Shown in pieces: positions 23,504 to 43,574 of a stretch of DNA of 64,000 bases. Each line of letters begins with the position of its first letter. The first letter of the stretch is position 1. The notes below the pieces were generated by a model. It did no database searches. It was given only the letters and a program-made list of their open reading frames with translations, and was not told where the DNA came from. This DNA comes from SAR202 cluster bacterium bin90 (GTDB lineage Bacteria > Chloroflexota > Dehalococcoidia > Lucifugimonadales > JADFKI01). The stretch covers positions 1-64,000 of the forward strand of contig MPND01000015.1 in assembly GCA_002238855.1 (NCBI GenBank), in the 5' to 3' direction. A program made the translations under genes and the position numbers.

Positions 23504-24707
23504 CTAAAGTTGGTGCGCCCACCATGGCTTTCGCCGCGTCCTGAACATCGCATCGGCAAGCTGCACTGCTTCAGGCGAGGCAACCTCCGCGCGTGAAGCG
23601 TGTTCCAACGTGCTGAACGATACGCCGTCAAGGTATGCCGCTCCCAGGTCCGCCGCCGATAGCGTGATGTCCGGAGTGGCGGTTGTAGCCTCGCAGCGTG
23701 CGCCCTCCGCGCCTCCCTCCAGTTCGTATCGCCCCTCGTTCCACGGACAGAAATCGTCCCGCACCTCAAGGACGATGCGTCCCTCTCTGGCATAAGTGCG
23801 CGCTTCGAGCGCCTTCCGCACATCCAGAACGCGGAGCCACATCCCATCGCGAAGAGTGCGCTGCAGCCTGCGCGGGTCAGCCAGCATCCAGGGCAGCGGA
23901 TCATCCACCGGGCGGTCATCACACTCAATGGTCGTTCTGAGGTCAATGCCAAAGCAGAATCTCCACAGCGCCGCGTGCGCCGCATCGGTTCCTGCCATTA
24001 AGTCCATCACCTTAACGGTCTGACCTTGCAGCCTGTAAACCACATAGCCGTCTATCTCGCCATCCTCCTTATACACCACGAAGTGGAACGCGCTCCCTCC
24101 CCTTCTTTCGTGTTCGAAGTCCGCCAGAAACTCGGACCAGTGATCAGGATGCAGTGCTACAAACGCAGATCTGTCTGCGCAAACTCGCACGGCAACCGCA
24201 GGCAGCAACTCCGCGGCATCGTCCTTGTCGATGAAGCGAAGTCGGCCCGGCGATTCAGGTGCGTACGCCAACTCAGTGTGTCGCCTGTCAATGCTCCAGC
24301 TCTCAATTATCGATGCGATTCCATAGCCATAACGCCCGTATATGATGCTCTCCGACGCGCCCAGCATCGCGAAGGTTTCGTCATTCTCGTGCGCCTCCCG
24401 TAGATGCATATCCATCATTCGCGTCAGGATTCCACGCCTTCGATGCGTTGGCAGCACCGTAACGCCCGCCACCACCGCCGCCGGCGCGCTCCGACCTTCG
24501 GGTATATTCATCTGCATCGGGTACACGACCGCCGTGCCGACAATCTCGTCGCCATCCAGTGCGGCAAGCGATCGCGCGACCCTCAGCGGGCGGGCGCTGA
24601 TCTTTACGTCGTCGTCTGTCATCGTTGCCCCGAAGCCCACCGCACATCGTCCTGAGAAACGCAGGCCGCTCAATCTCCCCGATAAAGCGCAATTCTATGT
24701 CAGCCAT
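23504..24707 (-). CDS. Eis-like GNAT N-acetyltransferase, copy 1 (frameshifted near its start)
   Basis: Acetyl-CoA-dependent acetyltransferase of the Eis type: GNAT domain with 'VLPTHRRRGILTRMM' (acetyl-CoA loop) and the 'IYGRYGYG' Tyr, a second GNAT-like part, and a C-terminal SCP2-like domain ending in the free carboxylate '...WWAHQL'. Homology to the two neighbours begins at ATG 24707 (MADIELRFIGE), but after about 23 codons the frame changes: one extra G in the GGG at 24638-24636 separates it from the main frame, which reads on as 'GFGATMTDDD'. Without that base the N-terminus aligns with its paralogues. Internal restart at 24622 would lose about 28 residues. Substrate unknown; Eis acetylates amines including aminoglycosides. 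Confidence 0.82.
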
Positions 24708-24940
24708 GAATCAACTCCGTAAGCTACTAGGGTTCCTATACACTGATCTTCATTACGTTGTATCCACATGTTGCGTCCACGAAAGAACTATCTCTGAGCG
24801 CCACTCCGAACGCACCATTAGTCATTCCTCACTGCGTCCGGAATCTCAAATCGTTGCAGTAAGCTTGTTTTCGACTTCAGATTTCTCGCTTCACTCGAAA
24901 TAACAAATAATGATAGCCTGCTACCTGATGTCAACAGAAC

Positions 24941-26137
24941 CTAGAATTCGTGCGGCCACCAGGGCTTCAGGCGGGTGCGAAACATGTCATCCGCCAAATA
25001 CATCGCTTCCCTTGTCGTTGCCTGCGCTCGTGATGCGAGAGTCAGCGCGCTCAGTTCTACGCCGCCCAAGTAGATGGACGCGAGCGAAGCGGCCGGCAGC
25101 GTGATATGTGGTGGCGCGGTCGTTGGCTTGCAGCGCGCCCCGTCGGAGCCTGCCTCCAATTCGTAGCGCCCGGCGTTCCATGGGCAGAACTCATCCAGCA
25201 CCTCGAACACGATGCGCCCCTCGACCGCGTAGGTGCGCGCCTCCAGCGCCTTGGGTACACTCAGCACGCGCAGCCACATACCGTCGAGCGGTGTGCGCTC
25301 CAGCCTGCGCGGGTCGGCGAGCATCCAGGGCAGTGGGTCGTCCACAGGTCGCTTTCCCGACTCGATTGTGGTTCTCAGGTCGATGCCGAATACGAACTGC
25401 CACAGCGCGGCGTGTGCAGCTTCGGATACTGCCATGAAGTCGAGCACGATAACTGTCCTGCCCTGAATTCGGTATATCACATAGCCGTCAGTCCCGCCCT
25501 GTTCCTCGTATGTTACGAAGAACGGCGCACTGCTGCCCGCTTGCCTTTCCTTGTCCGCCAGAAGCTCGTCCCAGAAGACGCCTCTGATAGATACAAAGCC
25601 GGGCCTCCTCGCGCATGCTCGGGCAGCTATCTCGGGAAACGCATCCTTCGTATCGCCCCTTTCGACGAAGCGCAGACGACCCAATGAGGGCGGCGAGTGC
25701 GCGAAGGCGGCATGACGCCTGTCAATCGTCCATCGCTCGTCGTGGGACGCTATGCCGAAGCCGTAGCGTCCGTATATCACGCTTTCGGAAGCGCCAAGAA
25801 TCGCTACCGATTCTCCCCTATCGTAAGATTCCCTGAGATGCGCCTCCATCATTCGGGTTAGAATCCCGCGCCTGCGATGTGTGGGCTGCACCGCAACGTC
25901 GGACACGATGGCGGTCAGCACTTCCCTGTCCTCGGAAGTGTTCATCTGACGAGGATAGACGATGGAACCGCCCACTATATCCTTGCCGTCGAACGCGGCT
26001 AATGACCTGCCATGTTTCAGCATTCGCGAGAACGAAACGATTGTCTCTTCGCTGGAATGGCCTCCGAACCCACGCCTGATTGCCTTGATAAACGGAATGT
26101 AATGCTCTTCCGTAATGTAGCGTAAGTCTATATCCAT
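24941..26137 (-). CDS. Eis-like GNAT N-acetyltransferase, copy 2
   Basis: 398 residues from ATG 26137 (MDIDLRYITEEH); an earlier frame start at 26212 only translates a duplicated scrap of the enolase-superfamily gene and is rejected. The GNAT acetyl-CoA motif is 'VQPTHRRRGILTRMM', the Tyr motif 'IYGRYGFG', and the C-terminus 'WWPHEF' supplies the catalytic carboxylate as in Eis. Clearly paralogous to copies 1 and 3 along the whole length. 233 nt, with no gene, separate it from copy 1; upstream lies the 56-bp copied fragment. Confidence 0.9.
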   Translation of the reverse strand: MDIDLRYITEEHYIPFIKAIRRGFGGHSSEETIVSFSRMLKHGRSLAAFDGKDIVGGSIVYPRQMNTSEDREVLTAIVSDVAVQPTHRRRGILTRMMEAHLRESYDRGESVAILGASESVIYGRYGFGIASHDERWTIDRRHAAFAHSPPSLGRLRFVERGDTKDAFPEIAARACARRPGFVSIRGVFWDELLADKERQAGSSAPFFVTYEEQGGTDGYVIYRIQGRTVIVLDFMAVSEAAHAALWQFVFGIDLRTTIESGKRPVDDPLPWMLADPRRLERTPLDGMWLRVLSVPKALEARTYAVEGRIVFEVLDEFCPWNAGRYELEAGSDGARCKPTTAPPHITLPAASLASIYLGGVELSALTLASRAQATTREAMYLADDMFRTRLKPWWPHEF

Positions 26138-26165
26138 CCTATCTGTCCTGTGTATCCTGTTAGTC

Positions 26166-26221
26166 TCCGCCCTACTGGTCAAACACCGAGCCGTCCCTGT
26201 GCAGGCGCACATTTATCTGCC
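26166..26221 (-). repeat. 56-bp copied fragment of the enolase-superfamily gene 3' end
   Basis: This segment matches 27629-27684, the last codons and stop of the enolase-superfamily gene, with about four mismatches. It sits between the start of acetyltransferase copy 2 and a short leader (CGGAGTTGAATCATGAC) that resembles the leader of copy 1 (CGGAGTTGATTCATGGC). It is a scar of the tandem duplication or recombination that multiplied the acetyltransferase genes. Confidence 0.85.
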
Positions 26222-26333
26222 AGTCATGATTCAACTCCGCAGATCATTAAGATTCGTTTACACCGGTCCCTATCAAGTCGTAGCCAGTAAGAAAACTGGC
26301 TCTGCGCTTCGATTTATCGATTCTTCATTGGCA

Positions 26334-27542
26334 TCATAGCGGATGCGGCCAGAACGGTATCTGACTCGAACGAAACATAGTATCCGCCAGCCCGACGACC
26401 TCCTGCGTATTTGCTTCCGCTCTCATTCCGCGAATGAGTGTGCTCAGCCGGGTGTCGCCGAGATACATCGACGCCATCGCGTCCGACGGCAAGACGACAT
26501 CAGGCGCCGCATTAGTGCGCCTGCAGCGTGCGCCTTCATCTCCGACATCCAGTTCGTACCGCCCCTCATTCCACGGGCAGAACTCGTCCCTTATCTCGAT
26601 GACAATTCGCCCTTTCTTCGCGTAGTCACGCTGCTCCAGCGCTCTCTCCACATCCAGAATTCGCAGCCACATGCTATCCGTTCGCCGTCGCTCAAGTCGC
26701 CGCCGGTCGGCAAGCATCCACGGGAGCGGGTCATCCACGGGGCGATTGGCTGCCTCGATTCGCGTTCTAAGGTCTATGCCGAACACAAACTGCCAGAGCG
26801 TGATATATGCGTCAGGCGTCGCAGCCATCAGGTCCAGCACTACAACCGTCATGTCCCGAAGGCGATAGATGACATAGCCGTCTGTCCGTCCGTCTTCTTC
26901 GTAGACCGCGAAGTTTAACGGTCCGCCGCCGCGCCTGTTGATTTCAAGGTCGCCAAGCAGTTCTGCCCAGTGCTCAGGCCAAACTTGCACGAAACCCGAC
27001 CGCGTGCCGTAGCTCCTCTTGACCACAGGTGGCAGCAGCGAGAGTACGTCGTCTTTCTCGATAAAGCGTACGCTACCCCGCGAAGCCGGCGAATTCACGA
27101 GAGCAGTCCGGTGCCTGTCGATCGCCCACATCTCCGAGTGCGTGGCGACACCAAAGCCGTATCGTCCATAAATTATCGACTCGGACGCCTCCAGAATTGC
27201 CAAGGCGTGACCTTCTTCATACGCCCTGCGCAGTTGACACTCCATCATCCGGGTCAGAATGCCGCGCCTCCTGTGCGTGGGCAGGACGGCGACGCCCGAA
27301 ATAGCGGATACCGGAACAAGTTGGCATTCGGGCACGATCATTTTCATCGGATTGGAGACGAATGTGCCCACAATGCCACTCTTGTCGCAGGCAGCCAGCG
27401 CGTATCCCCTATGTAAAGGGGGCTTCATCGCCTCAAAGGTCTCGTCGTCGAGCGGCCAGTCACCGAAACCGCGCCCCATGACATTCAGATACGGTCGAAA
27501 CTCATCCTCGCCGATAAACCTAAGTTCGATTTCTGATTGCAT
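26334..27542 (-). CDS. Eis-like GNAT N-acetyltransferase, copy 3
   Basis: 402 residues. 'VLPTHRRRGILTRMM' (acetyl-CoA loop), 'IYGRYGFG' Tyr motif, central 'VDDPLPWMLADRRRLERR' shared by all three copies, and C-terminal 'FWPHPL' with terminal carboxylate. It begins MQSEIELRFIGEDEF, aligning with the frame-corrected start of copy 1. It follows the enolase-superfamily gene by 92 nt, the same relation preserved as a scar in front of copy 2, so this is probably the parental position. Function: acetylation of an unknown amine. Confidence 0.9.
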   Translation of the reverse strand: MQSEIELRFIGEDEFRPYLNVMGRGFGDWPLDDETFEAMKPPLHRGYALAACDKSGIVGTFVSNPMKMIVPECQLVPVSAISGVAVLPTHRRRGILTRMMECQLRRAYEEGHALAILEASESIIYGRYGFGVATHSEMWAIDRHRTALVNSPASRGSVRFIEKDDVLSLLPPVVKRSYGTRSGFVQVWPEHWAELLGDLEINRRGGGPLNFAVYEEDGRTDGYVIYRLRDMTVVVLDLMAATPDAYITLWQFVFGIDLRTRIEAANRPVDDPLPWMLADRRRLERRRTDSMWLRILDVERALEQRDYAKKGRIVIEIRDEFCPWNEGRYELDVGDEGARCRRTNAAPDVVLPSDAMASMYLGDTRLSTLIRGMRAEANTQEVVGLADTMFRSSQIPFWPHPL

Positions 27543-27634: not shown

Positions 27635-28780
27635 CTACTGGTCCACCACCGAGCCGTCGCGGTGCAGGCGCACATTTATCTGCCCGTAGGTCCGCGGCGG
27701 CGCTTTCTCCTGCGCATCGTCCGCAATCTCGATGCCGATTCCCGGCGCGTCCGGAATAATCAGGAAGCCGTCCTCAACCGCAATCGGCTCCTTGACCATT
27801 ACATTCTTCGGGAACTCGTGCTCACCCGTCGGGTATTCCTGTATGGCGAAGTTCGGCGCGCATGCCGCGATCTGCAGGCACGCCGCAGTGCTGATCGGCC
27901 CCAACGGGTTATGCGGCACGACGCCCACATAACTTGCCTCTGCCAGCGCCGCGATCTTCTTTGTGTGCGTGATGCCACCAGCCAGGCACACATCCGGGCG
28001 AATATACTGCACCGCGCCGCGCCTCAGCAGCATATCGAATTCGTGGATAGTCTGGAATCGCTCCCCCGTAGCAATTGGCACAGTAATCTGGTTCGCCACA
28101 AGTTCCATCGCGTCATAGTGCTCCGGCAGGATGGGGTCTTCGTAGAACATCGGGTGGAATTCCGCGATCCCCTGCGCCAGCACGACGGCTTCGGCGGGTG
28201 TCAGCCTGCGGTGAATCTCGATGCACAGATCAACTTCGTTGCCCGCCGCCTCGCGATACATCCGCACAGCGTCAATGGCATCCGCCATCTTGTCAGAGTG
28301 CGACTTGTAGTACGGCACCGAGCGGTCCTCGTCGAGGAACGGCGTCAGATGCCCGACGGCAGTGAACCCCGCTTCCTTAGCCGCCTTCACACCCGTCACG
28401 AGCTCCTCGCGGGTGGAGCCGAATACATGGTAATAGACACGCGCCTTGTCGCGGACCTTGCCCCCCAGTAGCTGGTACACCGGCACGCCGAAATGCTTGC
28501 CCATAATGTCCCAGAGCGCAATGTCAATTGCGCTGATGCCCGCCATTATCGCCGCGCCCCGGAAGTGCCCGGTGCGGTACATCGTCTGCCAGTGGTGCTC
28601 GATGAGCAGCGGGTCCTTGCCGACTAGATACGGCGCGAACTTCAGACGGATCGCGGCTTCGGTGGCCTCCAGGTGCCCCCATGCGCCCGCCTCGCCGTAG
28701 CCAGTAATTCCCTCGTCAGTATGCACTTTGACGAACAGATACCTGTCAACTGGGTAAGTTTCAACGGATGTTATTTTCAT
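27635..28780 (-). CDS. Enolase-superfamily sugar-acid dehydratase-like protein
   Basis: 381 residues. Metal ligands and catalytic residues of the mannonate/galactonate-dehydratase-like group: 'CIEIHRRLTP' after strand 3, 'FYEDPILPEH', 'ATGERFQT', then 'VVPHNPLGPIST' with the catalytic His. The N-terminal cap has 'VHTDEGITGYGEAG'. Such enzymes dehydrate aldonic acids to 2-keto-3-deoxy acids. It lies 84 nt after the TauE/SafE gene block and 92 nt before the acetyltransferases. The 3' end has been copied to 26166-26221. Confidence 0.92.
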   Translation of the reverse strand: MKITSVETYPVDRYLFVKVHTDEGITGYGEAGAWGHLEATEAAIRLKFAPYLVGKDPLLIEHHWQTMYRTGHFRGAAIMAGISAIDIALWDIMGKHFGVPVYQLLGGKVRDKARVYYHVFGSTREELVTGVKAAKEAGFTAVGHLTPFLDEDRSVPYYKSHSDKMADAIDAVRMYREAAGNEVDLCIEIHRRLTPAEAVVLAQGIAEFHPMFYEDPILPEHYDAMELVANQITVPIATGERFQTIHEFDMLLRRGAVQYIRPDVCLAGGITHTKKIAALAEASYVGVVPHNPLGPISTAACLQIAACAPNFAIQEYPTGEHEFPKNVMVKEPIAVEDGFLIIPDAPGIGIEIADDAQEKAPPRTYGQINVRLHRDGSVVDQ

Positions 28781-28864: not shown

Positions 28865-29629
28865 TCACCCGGCCCGCAGAACCTTTAAGACCTCTGGCAC
28901 GAGAACCGCCATGCTCGATAGCCCAATTATGCCAAGCACGACGTAACGAAATATCTGCTCATTCATGCGTTGAATCAGCAGCGCGCCCGCTCCGAACCCG
29001 ACAAATGCAGGGATCAGAACTATGCCGACTAGGGTCAGCCGCTCCACGCTGTACAGCCCCGTGGTGGCATAAGCGACCACCCCGATCCCCGCAATGACTA
29101 GGAGGTAGAGCGCCATCGCCCCTCGCACAGACCGACGACCCAGGTTCCTAGCGAGCAGGAAAAGAACTATTAGCGGACCGCCGACAGCAAACGCCGTCAG
29201 GGTGGCTCCCACGACAAAGCCCGCCAAAACACCTAGCACAGTGGCGTAAGGTATTTCTCCTTTGTATTCCTTCAACGACAGGGCAGCAAGCAGCAGAATC
29301 AGCACCACAATGCCTATGCGAATTAGAGTGGGATCGGCAAACTTCAAGATCGCTACACCGAATGGCACTCCAAGCACGCCCGCCGCCACAATCGGGACTA
29401 CCTCCCGATAAGGAATATCCTTCCTCGCCTGAATGGCAATCAGAATCCCAGCGCTGACCCCGCCTGTGTTTACGACTATTACAGCCGTCTGAGGATCACT
29501 AATGGCGAGTAGTGAAATGGGCATTGCGGTCATGGCAATGCCGAATCCGGTAGCGCTATACACCGTGCAGCCGAGAAACAAAGCAAGCGCCAGGATTGCC
29601 ACACCGGTAAGCCCAAGTGTCAGTTCCAT
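28865..29629 (-). CDS. TauE/SafE-family anion exporter, copy 4 of the tandem array
   Basis: Integral membrane protein of 254 residues with about eight helices in two halves. Family features: 'GCTVYSATGFGIAMTAMPI' at the start and 'FVVGATLTAFAVGGPLIVLFLL' in the middle. TauE/SafE proteins export sulfite, sulfoacetate or related anions. Its start codon shares one base with the stop of the preceding copy (TAATG-type junction), so translation is coupled. Last of four paralogues in a row. Confidence 0.9.
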   Translation of the reverse strand: MELTLGLTGVAILALALFLGCTVYSATGFGIAMTAMPISLLAISDPQTAVIVVNTGGVSAGILIAIQARKDIPYREVVPIVAAGVLGVPFGVAILKFADPTLIRIGIVVLILLLAALSLKEYKGEIPYATVLGVLAGFVVGATLTAFAVGGPLIVLFLLARNLGRRSVRGAMALYLLVIAGIGVVAYATTGLYSVERLTLVGIVLIPAFVGFGAGALLIQRMNEQIFRYVVLGIIGLSSMAVLVPEVLKVLRAG

Positions 29630-30378
29630 TACAGGTACTTGCTGGCTTCTTTAGCCAGAACCAAGACGCTGGACACAATGATGATGCCGATGACTGTCAT
29701 ATTGAAGACTCGCTCATTCAGGCGTCTCATCAGGAAACTCCCAATGGCTATTCCCACCACAGACGGAATTATAATGACGCCGATCAGTGTAAGGCGAAGC
29801 GGTGTGTACAATCCATTGAGCGCAAAGAGTATTATGGAAAAACTCATCAACGCCAACAGGAAGAATGCCATCGCCGCCCGGACGGTCTGTCGCTCCCACT
29901 TCTTAGTCATGAGAAACAGCATCACCAGTGAGCCGGCAACGCCCGATGTCGGCAACAGTACGCCAACTATGAAACCCGCCGCAATTCCCACCGGCGTCGA
30001 GTAAGGGATCTCTCGCTCCACCTTCACGAACGACCCAATCGCAAAGAGAATTATCAATACGGCGATCCCGATGCTGAGAATGCTCGAATCTGCCGTCGTC
30101 AGTATGAACACGGCAATAGGCGCGCCACACAGGGCAGCTATGGTTATCGGCAATACTTCCCTGAAGGGCACGTCCCGCCACGACTTCGAGATTATCCATA
30201 CGCCTATCCCCAGCCCAGCCGTCCCTGCTACCACGATAACGGTTTGCGGTTCATAAACGAGCAGCATAAGTGGCGTAGAAATCATCCCGATCCCGAAGCC
30301 CGTTGCGCTGAAGACCGTAGAAGCCAATAACATCGCAAATACGACGACGACTGCTTCAAGCCATCCCAACTCCATCAA
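29629..30378 (-). CDS. TauE/SafE-family anion exporter, copy 3
   Basis: 249 residues, about eight helices; 'STVFSATGFGIGMISTPLMLL' and 'FIVGVLLPTSGVAGSLVMLFL' mark the two family repeats. The stop overlaps the start of copy 4 by one base and its own start overlaps the stop of copy 2 by four (ATGA). Divergent enough from its neighbours that the duplications are old, which suggests different substrates or hetero-oligomers. Confidence 0.9.
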   Translation of the reverse strand: MMELGWLEAVVVVFAMLLASTVFSATGFGIGMISTPLMLLVYEPQTVIVVAGTAGLGIGVWIISKSWRDVPFREVLPITIAALCGAPIAVFILTTADSSILSIGIAVLIILFAIGSFVKVEREIPYSTPVGIAAGFIVGVLLPTSGVAGSLVMLFLMTKKWERQTVRAAMAFFLLALMSFSIILFALNGLYTPLRLTLIGVIIIPSVVGIAIGSFLMRRLNERVFNMTVIGIIIVSSVLVLAKEASKYL

Positions 30379-31112
30379 AAGCTTCCCGCCTCTCTAGCCA
30401 GAATGATAACGCTGGACGATACGATTATCGTCAAGACCGCGTACCGAAATACTCGTTCGCTCATTAACTTTAGAATCAGCGCGCCGAGCCCCAACCCCGC
30501 CAGCATGGGTACCACCATGAGCGCAATCAGGATCAGCCTTTCTTCAGTGTACAGCCCTGCGACAGCATAGCCTGCTACGCTGAACACGTCCAGCACCAGC
30601 AGAAAGAATGCCATTGCCGCTCTGACGGATTCTCGCTGCCAGTTCCGGGTCAGAAGATAGAGAGTCACCAGCGGACCGCCAACGCCAAACGCGGGAAGCA
30701 CGACCCCGACCGTAAATCCGGCAATCACGCCGACTACCTTTGAGTATGGAAAGTCCCTCTGGATGCGAAAGGTCGCGGTCGCCGCCAGCACCAGAACGAG
30801 CACGGATATGCCGATCCGCATTATACTCGGGTCGGCAAATTTCAGAATGTACACCGCGATTGGCACGCCTAGGGCACCAGCAGCAGCAATTGACAATACC
30901 TCCCTGAAGGGTATGTCTCTTCGAGCCTGTAGAACTATCCACGCCTCCAGTGCAAGCGCGATCGTGTTCAAAACAACTACCGCAGTCTGCGGCTCCAGCA
31001 CGAACAGCAGGCCCGGCATTGCTACCACACCAATCCCGAAGCCCGTGGCGCTGAGCGCCGTGCAGCCCAGGAAGAGCATGAAGGCAGCCACACCAACCTG
31101 AATGGTACTCAT
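30375..31112 (-). CDS. TauE/SafE-family anion exporter, copy 2
   Basis: 245 residues with the repeats 'GCTALSATGFGIGVVAMPGLL' and 'FTVGVVLPAFGVGGPLVTLYLL'. Among the four it is closest in motif wording to copy 4. Overlaps copy 3 by four bases and copy 1 by one base. Membrane exporter of an undetermined anion. Confidence 0.9.
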   Translation of the reverse strand: MSTIQVGVAAFMLFLGCTALSATGFGIGVVAMPGLLFVLEPQTAVVVLNTIALALEAWIVLQARRDIPFREVLSIAAAGALGVPIAVYILKFADPSIMRIGISVLVLVLAATATFRIQRDFPYSKVVGVIAGFTVGVVLPAFGVGGPLVTLYLLTRNWQRESVRAAMAFFLLVLDVFSVAGYAVAGLYTEERLILIALMVVPMLAGLGLGALILKLMSERVFRYAVLTIIVSSSVIILAREAGSF

Positions 31113-31858
31113 TACAGGCTGACAACTTCCCGCACCAGCACAGTCATGCTCGTAACAACTATCGCTACTATCACCAGTCTCCTGAACATCACCTCATTGA
31201 TTCGCCGCAAAATCAGCAGCGCTAGACCCCAGCCCAGCACAACTGGCAATACCGCGACTCCAATGAGTTGGACGCGCTCGGCCGTCAGTAGACCGGAAGC
31301 GCCGTAACCAACGACGCCCGCTCCCTCAACCGCGAGGAAGTACAGCGACAGCGACCCTCGCAGCGCATGGCTTGACATTCTGTGCGACAGCCACGCGAGC
31401 ACCATCAGCGCGCCACCAACGCCGAACGCGTTCAGCATCACGCTCACCACGAAGCCCACGCCCAACTCCACCGGCGTCGACTTCGGCAGTGCCCATCGAA
31501 TGTTTAGTGTGGCAAGCAATGTGAGCGCGATGATCAGCGCAACTATGGCTATGCGAAGAAAGCCTGTGTCCGCATCCCGCAGAATGAAAATTCCCACGGG
31601 AACGCCTACCAGCCCCGCGCCGGCTACGGGCAGCACTTGGCGTACAGGAATGTGCCGCCGCGTCTGCCATATCACCAGCGAGAACATCAGCAGCGAGACC
31701 GAGTTGATTACAACGACTGCTGTCTGCGGATCCAGCAGCAACAGGAGCAAGGGAAACGATGCAACGCCGATGCCAAACCCGACCGTGCAGAAAACAAGCG
31801 CGCCGCCAAATACGATCGCGGCAACAACCAGGGTCTGCTCGACCGAAAGAGTGTCCAA
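31112..31858 (-). CDS. TauE/SafE-family anion exporter, copy 1
   Basis: 248 residues; 'ALVFCTVGFGIGVASFPLLLL' and 'FVVSVMLNAFGVGGALMVLAWL' give the family repeats. First copy of the array, starting 29 nt after the D-aminoacylase stop, so the five genes probably form one transcript. The first repeat has Cys-Thr-Val where the other copies have the Ser-Ala-Thr motif. Confidence 0.9.
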   Translation of the reverse strand: MDTLSVEQTLVVAAIVFGGALVFCTVGFGIGVASFPLLLLLLDPQTAVVVINSVSLLMFSLVIWQTRRHIPVRQVLPVAGAGLVGVPVGIFILRDADTGFLRIAIVALIIALTLLATLNIRWALPKSTPVELGVGFVVSVMLNAFGVGGALMVLAWLSHRMSSHALRGSLSLYFLAVEGAGVVGYGASGLLTAERVQLIGVAVLPVVLGWGLALLILRRINEVMFRRLVIVAIVVTSMTVLVREVVSL

Positions 31859-31887: not shown

Positions 31888-33465
31888 TTACGGCACCGCC
31901 TGACCGGCAAACACGCCCGTGCAGCGCTCGCTGTCCACCGCGACCTCCCCATTTACCAGCACATACGGGATCCCTGTTGGGAATTGGCAAGGGTCATCGT
32001 AAGTCGCGTTGTCGTTTATTCGCTCGGCGTCGAATACGACGATATCGGCAAATGCGCCCTGCTCAATGCGGCCCCGTCCCGTCAGACCAAACCGCTGCGC
32101 CGCACTGTCCGTCATGCGCTGTACCATCTGTTCCAGCGTCAGCATCCCGAAGCTGCGCCTCAGCCGTCCAAGGAAGCGCGGGAAGCAGCCATAAGCGCGC
32201 GGGTGCGGCATGCTGCCCACATGAATCGAATCGCTGCCCACCATGTAGTCCGGGCGCGAGAGCAGTTCTACACAGTCTCGGCTAACCTGCTGCCACACCT
32301 TCACACTGTCCGGCGGGGCGCCCCGGTATCCGACCTGCAACTCCTCATCCTCGAGGAGCCACATCATCGTCTCCTCCATCGATTCTCCGCGATCGTCCGC
32401 GATGTCCCGCAAGCTCATGCCCTCCAGATGGTTGTTCTTCGGCAGATATGTGAACACGGCGGACGACAGGTCGTTTGAACCCGCCTGCATATACTCCAGC
32501 ATTCGCTGTCGCTCCTCGGGGTCGCGCAGCCGCTCCATCAGAGCTTCAGGTCCCCCGTTGTTCACCTCGCTTGGCAGATAGCGGATCGGGTAGCTGCTGC
32601 CCGTTGGATACGGGTAAAGCTCCAGCGTGCAGTCCACACCCTCAGCCTTCGCCTCATCGATGAGCCTCACTCTTTCGGCGACCTGCCCAGCGCTCTCAGG
32701 ATGCGTGCGGTAGTGTGAGAAATGCACCTTCACGCCTGAACGCCTGCCGATTTCCAGTGCTTCCGGCACATCACCGCCACCAAACCCGCGCTCGGTATTC
32801 ACATCGCGAAGGTGCGTCACATATACTCCACCGTACTCCGCGACAACCTTGCACAACTCCACAAGCTCGTCCGTGTCGCTCCACGCGTTCGGGAAATACG
32901 ACATCCCAGTGGCAAGCCCGACCGCGCCTTGCTCCATGCCCTCGCGGATCAGTTGCTTCCCCTTCTCCAGCGCGTCGCCCACAAGTGGCTTGTCGTAGAA
33001 CCCGACCGTCTCTAGTCGGATGGCGCCATGGGCGATGCAGTACGCGGTGTTGATGGCTGTCTTCTTGTGATAGTGCGAACGGAAGGCGGCGACACTGCTC
33101 ATATCCAGGTCTTCCGGCGGCTCACCCAGGATGCCCGCAAGATAGCGCCGGTTCATTCGGTAGTTTTCGGGAGAAAGCGGCGCATACGACAGCCCATCCT
33201 GTCCCAGGATCTCAGTAGTTATGCCCTGTCGCAGGCCGTCCGCATGCTGCGGGTCGATCAGCAATATGCCGTCAGAATGGGCATGCGTATCAATGAAGCC
33301 CGGCGAAACCGTCAGTCCGGTGGCATTTATGACGCGGCGCGCATCAGACTGCGACAGGTCACCAATCTCCACAATCCTCTCGCCCACGACCCCGACGTCT
33401 GCGCGATAGGCGGCGGCGCCCGTCCCGTTAACCACGCTCCCCCCAACTATGACAACATCAAACAT
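31888..33465 (-). CDS. N-acyl-D-amino-acid deacylase (amidohydrolase family 3)
   Basis: Cytoplasmic zinc amidohydrolase of 525 residues that frees D-amino acids from N-acyl derivatives or acts on related amides. 'GFIDTHAHSDG' has the metal His pair (H61, H63); further ligands are in 'YVTHLRDVNTERG' and 'KVHFSHYRTHPESAG'; the Asp region is 'MVGSDSIHVGSMPHPRAYG'. Normal family length. Heads the operon with four TauE/SafE exporters, an unusual pairing. A paralogue lies at 40833-42407. The 163-nt gap upstream has a possible TATACT -10 and a 6-bp inverted repeat (33549-33566) but no clear -35. Confidence 0.92.
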   Translation of the reverse strand: MFDVVIVGGSVVNGTGAAAYRADVGVVGERIVEIGDLSQSDARRVINATGLTVSPGFIDTHAHSDGILLIDPQHADGLRQGITTEILGQDGLSYAPLSPENYRMNRRYLAGILGEPPEDLDMSSVAAFRSHYHKKTAINTAYCIAHGAIRLETVGFYDKPLVGDALEKGKQLIREGMEQGAVGLATGMSYFPNAWSDTDELVELCKVVAEYGGVYVTHLRDVNTERGFGGGDVPEALEIGRRSGVKVHFSHYRTHPESAGQVAERVRLIDEAKAEGVDCTLELYPYPTGSSYPIRYLPSEVNNGGPEALMERLRDPEERQRMLEYMQAGSNDLSSAVFTYLPKNNHLEGMSLRDIADDRGESMEETMMWLLEDEELQVGYRGAPPDSVKVWQQVSRDCVELLSRPDYMVGSDSIHVGSMPHPRAYGCFPRFLGRLRRSFGMLTLEQMVQRMTDSAAQRFGLTGRGRIEQGAFADIVVFDAERINDNATYDDPCQFPTGIPYVLVNGEVAVDSERCTGVFAGQAVP

Positions 33466-40663: not shown

Positions 40664-40832
40664 CTCGTATCTCCGCCCTTTGCACATTTGACTTGCCGAC
40701 GGCAGGGCAACCCTCAGTCTGCCCTGAAAGCGCGCCTATTGTAGCAGACCGAATAATGCAACCCCCGCACAATCCAAAAGCCTGCTATCATCCACAACTG
40801 ACGATAACCCTCGCTCGGGAATGGAGATGAAG

Positions 40833-42407
40833 ATGCTGGATATTCTGATTGCTAACGGCCAGGTAATAGATGGGACTGGAAGCGCGGGTTACTACGCCGC
40901 AGTGGGTATTGAGGACGATACCGTCTCCATCCACAGGGGCGACATATCCCACATCGAAGCCGCGAGAACGATCGATGCTACAGGCTACGTGGTCTGCCCC
41001 GGCTTCATCGACCTGCACTCCCACGCAGGTCTGACGATGCTCGGCGCGCCGCACCACGACCCAAAGGTGCGGCAGGGCGTGACCACCGAACTCGTTGGCA
41101 TCGACGGCATCTCGCACGCCCCGTTTAAGTCTCAGGACGAGCTTCACCGCTACATCTGGCTGGACTCCGGACTGAACGGCTACCCACCGATGCCGGCGGA
41201 CTGGCTGTCAGTGGCCGACTACCTCGGCAAGTTCGACGACACCGTGGCCATCAACGTCGCCTACATCCTCGGCAACTCTCCCGTCCGAATCTGGTCCGTC
41301 GGCTGGAACGACAGGCCACCCACCGACGCCGAGATGGCAGACATGAAGGCAGTCACACGCGAGGCAATGGAAGAGGGTGCCTGGGGTCTATCCACAGGAC
41401 TCGACTACCCGCCCGGCGCATACGCATCCACCGACGAGCTTGTCGAGCTGTCCGACACAGTGGCAAGCATGGGCGGCTTCTACCACACGCACACCCGCGC
41501 CAGTCTACGCGCTCAGGGACTGCTCGCCCCTTGGGAAGAGGCTATCGACATTGGGCGGCGGTCCGGCATCCCCATCCACCTGACCCACTATCGTCAGAGC
41601 GAGCAGGGCACAGGTAGTCACCTGGACTACCTCGGCCTAGTGGAAGACGCCCGCTCTGATGGCATGGATGTAACCTTCGACTGCTACACCTACCCATACT
41701 CAGGCACAACCATCACCATCGGCCTGCCCCACTGGGCAAAGGACGGAGGCCCCGAAAGACTGATGGCGGCACTCCGCGACCCCAACGACCGGAAGCGGAT
41801 GGCAGCCGAAGTCTCCCCCGATAGGCTTCGAGACAACTGGCTCACGAACTTCACCCAGCCGCAGAACAAGCAGTACGAAGGCAGGCTCATAACCGACATT
41901 GCCGAGATGCGCCAGCAGGAACCTGCCGAAGCGCTATTCGACCTCTTGCTTGAGGAGAATTTAGGAATATCAACCGTCGGGCTGGGCACCAACCCGCATA
42001 CTCTCCACGCCTTCGTCTCCCACCCTGCAGGCATGATAGCCTCCGACGCCATACTGTTCGGCGAATACCCGAATCCGCGCACATATGGCTGCTTCCCAAT
42101 CGTGCTTGCAGAATTCGTTCGTGCCGAAAAACACCTCCGACTCCCGGAAGCGATCCGCAAGATGACCTCGTTCCCCGCCCAGCGCCTTGGCCTGCCAGAC
42201 CGTGGCATCCTGCGAGACGGCTTCAGAGCTGACATCGTTGTATTCGACCCGGCGACCGTCAAAACCACCGCCACCCGCGAAGACCCGCACCACTACCCCA
42301 TTGGAATCGACTACGTCATCGTCAACGGCAAAGTCGTCATTGATAGCGGCGAGAATACCGGCGCACTGCCGGGACGCGCCCTTCGCAGGGGCCACGCGGC
42401 GACCTGA
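40833..42407 (+). CDS. N-acyl-D-amino-acid deacylase-like amidohydrolase
   Basis: 524 residues from ATG 40833, which has GGAG (40823-40826) 6 nt upstream; ATGs at 40821 and 40827 are in frame but lie in the ribosome site. 'GFIDLHSHAG' holds the metal His pair (H62, H64); 'FYHTHTRASLRAQG' and 'IPIHLTHYRQSEQG' give further ligands; the C-terminal 'YGCFPIVLAEFVRAEKHLRL' region matches its paralogue at 31888-33465. Lacks a signal peptide. The neighbouring genes on + are the broken cyclase; on - the divergent enolase-superfamily gene. Confidence 0.9.
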   Translation: MLDILIANGQVIDGTGSAGYYAAVGIEDDTVSIHRGDISHIEAARTIDATGYVVCPGFIDLHSHAGLTMLGAPHHDPKVRQGVTTELVGIDGISHAPFKSQDELHRYIWLDSGLNGYPPMPADWLSVADYLGKFDDTVAINVAYILGNSPVRIWSVGWNDRPPTDAEMADMKAVTREAMEEGAWGLSTGLDYPPGAYASTDELVELSDTVASMGGFYHTHTRASLRAQGLLAPWEEAIDIGRRSGIPIHLTHYRQSEQGTGSHLDYLGLVEDARSDGMDVTFDCYTYPYSGTTITIGLPHWAKDGGPERLMAALRDPNDRKRMAAEVSPDRLRDNWLTNFTQPQNKQYEGRLITDIAEMRQQEPAEALFDLLLEENLGISTVGLGTNPHTLHAFVSHPAGMIASDAILFGEYPNPRTYGCFPIVLAEFVRAEKHLRLPEAIRKMTSFPAQRLGLPDRGILRDGFRADIVVFDPATVKTTATREDPHHYPIGIDYVIVNGKVVIDSGENTGALPGRALRRGHAAT

Positions 42408-42550: not shown

Positions 42551-43574
42551 ATGCCAGCGCAGATTCCCACCGAAGAAGAAGTCCTGAGTTACTTTGACAC
42601 ACTGTCCAACTGGGGACGCTGGGGGGAAGACGATCAGCACGGCACGCTCAACTTCCTCACGCAAGAGAAGACGAAGCAAGCCGTATCACTGGTGCAGGAA
42701 GGAACCACGGTTTCCTGCTCGCGCACCGTCACCTGGACACCAGAAGCCGACCACATGTCCACTCCGCTGCATTTCATGCTTGAGAGCGGCGAAGGCTGGG
42801 CAAGCGGCGACAAGGTGACGAATCGCCCAAGCCAGGCTTCAACCGACTTCTTCGGTATGGCATTTGACGGCTACCACATCACACCCCCAGGCAGCACTTC
42901 GCCCCTTTTTTTTCTGGGGGGTGAAGTAAAAGCGAGCCACCGCCGACCACAGCACACACATGGACAGCCTTGCCCACTTCTTCTGGCAGGGCAAAATGTA
43001 CAACGGTCGCCCGACACATCTCGTCTCCACAGGCTTGGGAGCTACCGTAGAGTCAATCGAGCTGGCTGGTGAAGGTGTTGCGACGCGCGGCGTCCTTGTT
43101 GACGCGCCAATGATTCGCGGCGTCGATTGGATAGAGCGCGGAGAAGGCGTCATGCCCGAAGACATCCTCGCGGCCGAAGAGCGATGCGGCTTCACGATCG
43201 AAGAGGGCGACGTGCTTCTCGTACGCACCGGAAACCTGCACCGCCGCAATGTCGAGGGCCCCGTCAATCCCCGCGAAGAGGGCTCACCCGCGTGCCAGGC
43301 GGCGTGCCTCCCGCTGTTCCACGAGCGCGGCATCGCCGTTCTCGGCAGCGACACCGGCAATGACGTCATGCCCAGCCAGTATGAGAGTATGTCCAATCCC
43401 ATCCATCAGGTTGGCATCGTAGCTATGGGACTTTGGATACTCGACAACCCCAATCTCGAAGACTTGGCGGCAGCCTGTAGGGAACGCAACAGGTGGGAGT
43501 TCATGATAACCATCAATCCTCTGCGCCTGTCCAACACCACCGGCTCGCCCGTCAACCCAATCGCGATCTTCTAG
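42551..43574 (+). pseudogene. Cyclase / kynurenine-formamidase-like gene broken by a 73-bp insertion
   Basis: Two reading frames together make one cyclase-family metal hydrolase. The first (from 42551) runs MPAQIPTEEEVLSYFD... to 'DFFGMAFDGYHIT'; the second resumes as 'HMDSLAHFFWQGKMYNG' and continues to the normal C-terminus 'TGSPVNPIAIF' at 43574. The foreign 73 nt between them (42885-42957) change the frame and separate the first His of the metal motif HxDxxxH (HMDSLAH) from its upstream context. Translation of the first frame ends out of phase at 43072; the 3' frame has an internal ATG at 42960 but lacks that His and the N-terminal half. Intact relatives hydrolyse N-formylkynurenine or related amides/lactones. 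Assembly artefact cannot be excluded. Confidence 0.85.
42885..42957 (+). other. 73-bp insertion with T8/G6 runs and stem-loop
   Basis: Sequence absent from the expected gene, bounded by CACAC on the left (42880-42884) and on the right (42955-42959), compatible with a short target duplication. Inside, ACTTCGCCCC and GGGGGGTGAAGT can pair (10 bp, one G-T) around a loop with eight T; an alternative stem pairs CCCCCAG (42884-42890) with CTGGGGG (42914-42920). I saw no second copy in the window. Could be a tiny non-autonomous element, a repair insertion, or an assembly error. Confidence 0.6.

Follow-up and report, generated by a model that had tools for sequence, protein, structure and literature searches.

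Four predicted TauE/TSUP carriers in a conserved catabolic block: a genus-level expansion with signs of exchange between species

Carriers of the TSUP family are found very widely and have been poorly characterised. In the DNA analysed here (the window, a 64,000-nucleotide stretch from the SAR202 bacterium bin90), four genes of the TauE/SafE type stand in a row, which raises the question of why one operon would hold four such carriers and what they would transport. The initial annotation offered two answers, a hetero-oligomeric exporter or separate exporters for several anions, and pointed to sulfonate degradation.

Array architecture and neighbouring enzymes

An ORF and Pfam profile check found four intact ORFs (T1 to T4) running head-to-tail from 31858 to 28865 on the minus strand, in agreement with the initial annotation, which had described four diverged TauE/SafE genes at this place. 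The genes of the block are, in their 5′ to 3′ order:

31888..33465, minus strand, D-aminoacylase-like amidohydrolase of 525 aa, probable first gene of the block (PF07969, 84 bits)
31112..31858, minus strand, T1, predicted TauE/TSUP carrier (PF01925, 69.9 bits), TTG start
30375..31112, minus strand, T2, predicted TauE/TSUP carrier (PF01925, 86.8 bits), not in genomes G002 and G004
29629..30375, minus strand, T3, predicted TauE/TSUP carrier (PF01925, 87 bits), ATG start with an alternative TTG at 30378
28865..29629, minus strand, T4, predicted TauE/TSUP carrier (PF01925, 79 bits), in 5/5 genus genomes
27635..28780, minus strand, mandelate-racemase/enolase-superfamily dehydratase (NCBIfam NF010624, 353 bits), conserved partner 3′ of the TauE gene(s)
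26334..27542, minus strand, Eis-type GNAT acetyltransferase (PF13527/PF17668/PF13530), conserved outer neighbour

All four carriers belong to the PF01925 family: each matches at 70–87 bits over profile positions 2/3 to 234/235 of 237, the curated Pfam cut-off being 32.6 bits. T2, T3 and T4 share 35–40% identity with T1. The genome from which the window comes has seven PF01925 genes in total, and two of its other TauEs score 129–150 bits on the profile, versus 70–87 for T1–T4, which form a low-scoring branch. The reported overlaps of 1 or 4 bases can be read from the junction letters: TAATG at T1/T2 and again at T3/T4 (1 base each), and TTTTGATGG at T2/T3, where the overlap is 1 base from the ATG and 4 bases only with the TTG start. 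The TTG start of T1, kept in all five genus genomes, follows the amidohydrolase stop after a 29-bp gap with no overlap, and T4 is separated from the dehydratase by 84 bp. A single mRNA beginning at the amidohydrolase, as first suggested, is plausible, but a promoter scan found no sigma-70-like site on the minus strand within the region, and the block runs on beyond the carriers into the dehydratase. At its outer end, the window holds three tandem Eis-type GNAT paralogues (23504–27542) where the other genus genomes give one match; between species, the GNAT is 49–54% identical to that of the window and the adjoining dehydratase 95–97%.

The array had been placed behind a D-aminoacylase. An amidohydrolase does lie directly 5′, and its closest PDB relative is the D-aminoacylase 1m7j (E 2e-70). 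D-aminoacylases (subtype V) are recognised by a Cys/His/His metal site and by a catalytic Asp with an HxH motif. The HxH, the two metal His and the catalytic Asp positions are kept in the window's enzyme, but Asp90 replaces the Cys ligand (GNCG of 1m7j aligns with GQDG), as Asp does in every amidohydrolase orthologue covering the position; the name D-aminoacylase is therefore no guide to its substrate. Elsewhere in the window, a second D-aminoacylase-like amidohydrolase (40821–42407) likewise carries Asp at the position of the Cys metal ligand, and two overlapping ORFs in different frames (42551–43574) resemble the two parts of a single cyclase-type protein, perhaps split by a frameshift. The dehydratase scores 353.4 bits on the galactonate dehydratase model NF010624, above the NCBI equivalog cut-off of 311 bits, with 3rr1 as its closest PDB entry. 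Subtype V relatives include GlcNAc1A deacetylases (PMC12017989), and from this kinship and the sugar-acid-type dehydratase together one may reasonably guess that organic or sugar-acid anions are the transported substrates.

Alternatively, T1–T4 could export sulfite or sulfonates as part of organosulfur degradation, as their PF01925 membership might suggest. A TauE that functions as a sulfite exporter would be expected beside genes for sulfonate dissimilation, Xsc among them. The sulfonate link of the initial annotation was not recovered in a search for Xsc and TauD: across the five genus genomes no Xsc reached the curated cut-off (best 314 vs 676 bits) and TauD had no match. The block itself contains no sulfonate enzyme, its carriers lying next to an amidohydrolase and a sugar-acid-type dehydratase. 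On the other side, sulfatase-family matches number 6–13 per genus genome, and SAR202 group III has been proposed to oxidise molecules that perhaps include sulfonates (PMC6946804). In genome G163 a frameshifted T3-like TauE (locus L089, 8376–9099), either a pseudogene or an assembly error, lies directly 3′ of two ORFs that look sulfatase-like on sequence inspection, which also speaks for export of this kind. Weighing both sides, we consider sulfite or sulfonate export unlikely.

Distribution and origin of the copies

The array is present in each of the five genus genomes sampled, with unchanged gene order, between the amidohydrolase and the dehydratase. It is complete in G000, G001 and G003; G002 and G004 carry T1-T3-T4 without T2. 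The dN/dS values of 0.05–0.21 obtained for every copy indicate purifying selection. Because gene order is shared by 5/5 genomes and each copy is so constrained, the array is not a product of chance, and its divergence together with the dN/dS values rules out recent duplication or decay, a point on which the initial annotation had called for phylogeny. Within the genus, the amidohydrolase is 87–92% identical to its orthologues and the dehydratase 94–99%.

Other families of the order have the block of amidohydrolase, TauE, mandelate-racemase-type dehydratase and GNAT, or large parts of it, with one TauE. The dehydratase beside these single-copy TauEs is 72–74% identical, and in several families a GNAT follows it. 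No other tandem set was found among matches (E 1e-38 or better) to a profile built on T1–T4 in 250 genomes of the order, and the literature library searched contained nothing on tandem TauE arrays. Since the same block occurs elsewhere with one TauE, the array is read as a genus-level expansion. Orthologous loci with only one copy had been named beforehand as a finding that would count against the array; they do exist in other families, but they do not make it meaningless. In the same phylum, genomes G330 and G338 each have at least nine PF01925 genes among the matches listed, with an adjacent pair on contig C84 of G330.

Relatives of T2 and T3 occur as solo genes in other families at about 70–75% identity (about 71% for the T2 relatives at loci L122 and L123, 70% for the T3 relative in genome G164), and the solo relatives of T1 are more distant. 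The contig records matched in the search are all from Chloroflexota, part of them named Dehalococcoidia. At L122 (6001–6738), the solo T2 relative lies between an EthD-like and an amidase-like ORF in bin125, which is recorded as Chloroflexia and comes from the sponge Aplysina aerophoba (PMC5649159); this location suggests transfer beyond the order. Going by record names, the window's own genus may come from sponges as well. In G164 (locus L081, 8224–10121), the solo T3 relative stands beside an ORF resembling an IS-type transposase on sequence inspection, which suggests that the carrier is mobile.

A first tree of 59 rows gave T2–T4 100/100 support as a clade, in which the G164 solo gene fell within T3, and joined this clade to unlinked singletons of genomes G056 and G037; T1 grouped weakly (83/79) with the single-copy block TauEs. 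When the solo T2 relatives were added, T2 took in the L122 and L123 genes, T3 took in the G164 gene, and the placement of T1 was unresolved. Forcing T1–T4 and the solo copies into one clade cost 27.8 log units, and one in-place quadruplication was rejected by the AU test (p 0.0098). With T1 apart from T2–T4 and a common clade rejected, we conclude that the array combines two lineages. T1 is probably the native gene, that is, the positional orthologue of the single TauE in other families. The second lineage split as ((T3,T4),T2), so the absence of T2 from G002 and G004 is most simply a loss.

These results bear on the idea that T1–T4 are subunits of one hetero-oligomeric exporter whose stoichiometry is fixed by coupled translation. 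Such a complex would agree with the stop/start overlaps at most internal borders across the genus and with purifying selection on all four copies in three genomes. However, the supposed subunits do not always occur together, T2 being missing from two of the five genomes; T2 and T3 have solo relatives, other families have just one TauE in the slot, and a common origin of the four is rejected. We consider the hetero-oligomer, weakened in this way, quite unlikely.

Divergence and exchange between species

The flanks of the array are mostly 0.88–0.95 identical in DNA between G001 and G002 on both sides, whereas the array itself is mostly 0.63–0.81 identical, the transitions lying close to the amidohydrolase/T1 and T4/dehydratase junctions. 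The exception is one 150-bp patch of 96–97% identity at the T3/T4 border. Between the same genomes, dS is 0.26–0.36 in four flanking genes versus 0.97–1.64 in T1, T3 and T4. In four control pairs with a single TauE, the dS of the TauE was about equal to that of its neighbours or lower. The T3 tree is also discordant, setting G000 and G004 apart from G001, G002 and G003 against the other genes, and the dS of T3 between G001 and G003 is 0.67, compared with 1.2–2.1 for the other shared genes compared. These patterns are most simply explained by recombination, both of the array and of T3 by itself. The en-bloc replacement may be genuine, although it concerns one close pair of metagenome-assembled genomes, in which an assembly chimera is possible.

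Tentatively, and with rather less than even confidence, we propose that the array is a slot within a fixed catabolic operon where whole paralogous carriers are acquired, lost or exchanged between species through recombination at the slot's borders, with the effect that the substrate range would shift while the enzymes stay. Such a replacement island might instead owe its diversity to phages or hosts exerting pressure on exposed membrane proteins, transport specificity being secondary. Sharply bounded divergence between near-identical flanks, discordant T3 histories and the transposase-like ORF beside the G164 gene would all fit this pressure, but the dN/dS of the copies stays at or below 0.21, exchange is equally compatible with substrate niches, and we know of no phage-receptor role for the TauE/TSUP family. 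We regard phage or host pressure as a very unlikely driver.

Carrier specificity and comparison with known systems

TSUP carriers have eight transmembrane helices in two similar halves. The structural model, made for T2 alone (mean pLDDT 84), has ten helical elements, as expected for eight membrane helices of which one per half is broken, at about residues 24–26 (GFG) and 143–145 (GVG). A fold search of the PDB with this model gave no match (best E 0.017), and a sequence search gave no confident PDB relative. At or beside the helix breaks (residues 18–28 and 136–147) are positions fixed within each copy and differing between copies, as in the stretches NAFGVGGAL in T1, PAFGVGGPL in T2, PTSGVAGSL in the window's T3 and TAFAVGGPL in T4. 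Compared with all variable columns, the helix-break columns stand out (Fisher p 1.4e-4, for a region picked after the alignment had been inspected); compared with the other columns conserved within copies, the effect is gone (fixed differences in 10/18 vs 19/37, no enrichment). We therefore dropped a specificity switch at the helix breaks as proof, and divergence in specificity is not proven; in the light of the T2 model, the copy-specific residues fit differing specificities. Functional redundancy, with the array kept for dosage or by drift, would suit the absence of T2 from G002 and G004, where the block shows no other visible change, but is as improbable as the phage reading given the distinct fixed residues, long separate histories and low dN/dS of every copy.

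The reading we favour, in which we place an even measure of confidence, is an expanded, exchangeable transporter slot in a conserved catabolic block, filled by self-sufficient carriers of differing specificity that serve one organic-anion module. Across the order, the usual arrangement is a single TauE/TSUP carrier flanked by a D-aminoacylase-like amidohydrolase and a sugar-acid-type dehydratase. In the genus, the slot contains T1, probably native, together with the second TSUP lineage, and the added copies are old, under purifying selection and overlapping at stop/start junctions; on the simplest reading, recombination has moved the whole slot, or single copies in it, from one species to another. 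Each copy would act as a self-sufficient 8-helix secondary carrier, its anion specificity set by residues at the two broken helices, and jointly the copies would carry, by import or export, a number of small organic anions consumed or produced by the amidohydrolase/dehydratase pathway. Of the two original ideas, separate carriers for different anions remains the better one.

Overall, a known carrier family has genuinely expanded in this genus; the expansion is conserved, and its history of patchwork assembly and exchange is unusual. The locus offers related carriers in one operon and matched single-copy controls in sister families, so that their specificities are directly comparable. If exchange is confirmed in populations, the locus would be an instance of bacteria adjusting their transport through a change of carriers around unchanged enzymes.

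The four copies resemble the TauE/SafE family (PF01925; TSUP, TC 2.A.102; e.g. TauE of Cupriavidus necator) in scoring above the curated cut-off and in a predicted fold that is entirely helical, consists of two halves and has one helix broken in each; they differ in forming a low-scoring branch, in lying next to an amidohydrolase and a dehydratase in place of sulfonate genes, and in standing four in a row. The amidohydrolase shares its fold family, HxH, metal His pair and catalytic Asp with D-aminoacylase and with the GlcNAc1A deacetylase OngB, and departs from both in its Asp for the Cys metal ligand; moreover, the partner of OngB is an SSS-family importer, not a TauE (PMC9537276). The dehydratase, finally, is like enolase-superfamily enzymes of the D-galactonate dehydratase type in exceeding the NF010624 cut-off, and unlike them in lying within an amidohydrolase/TauE block.
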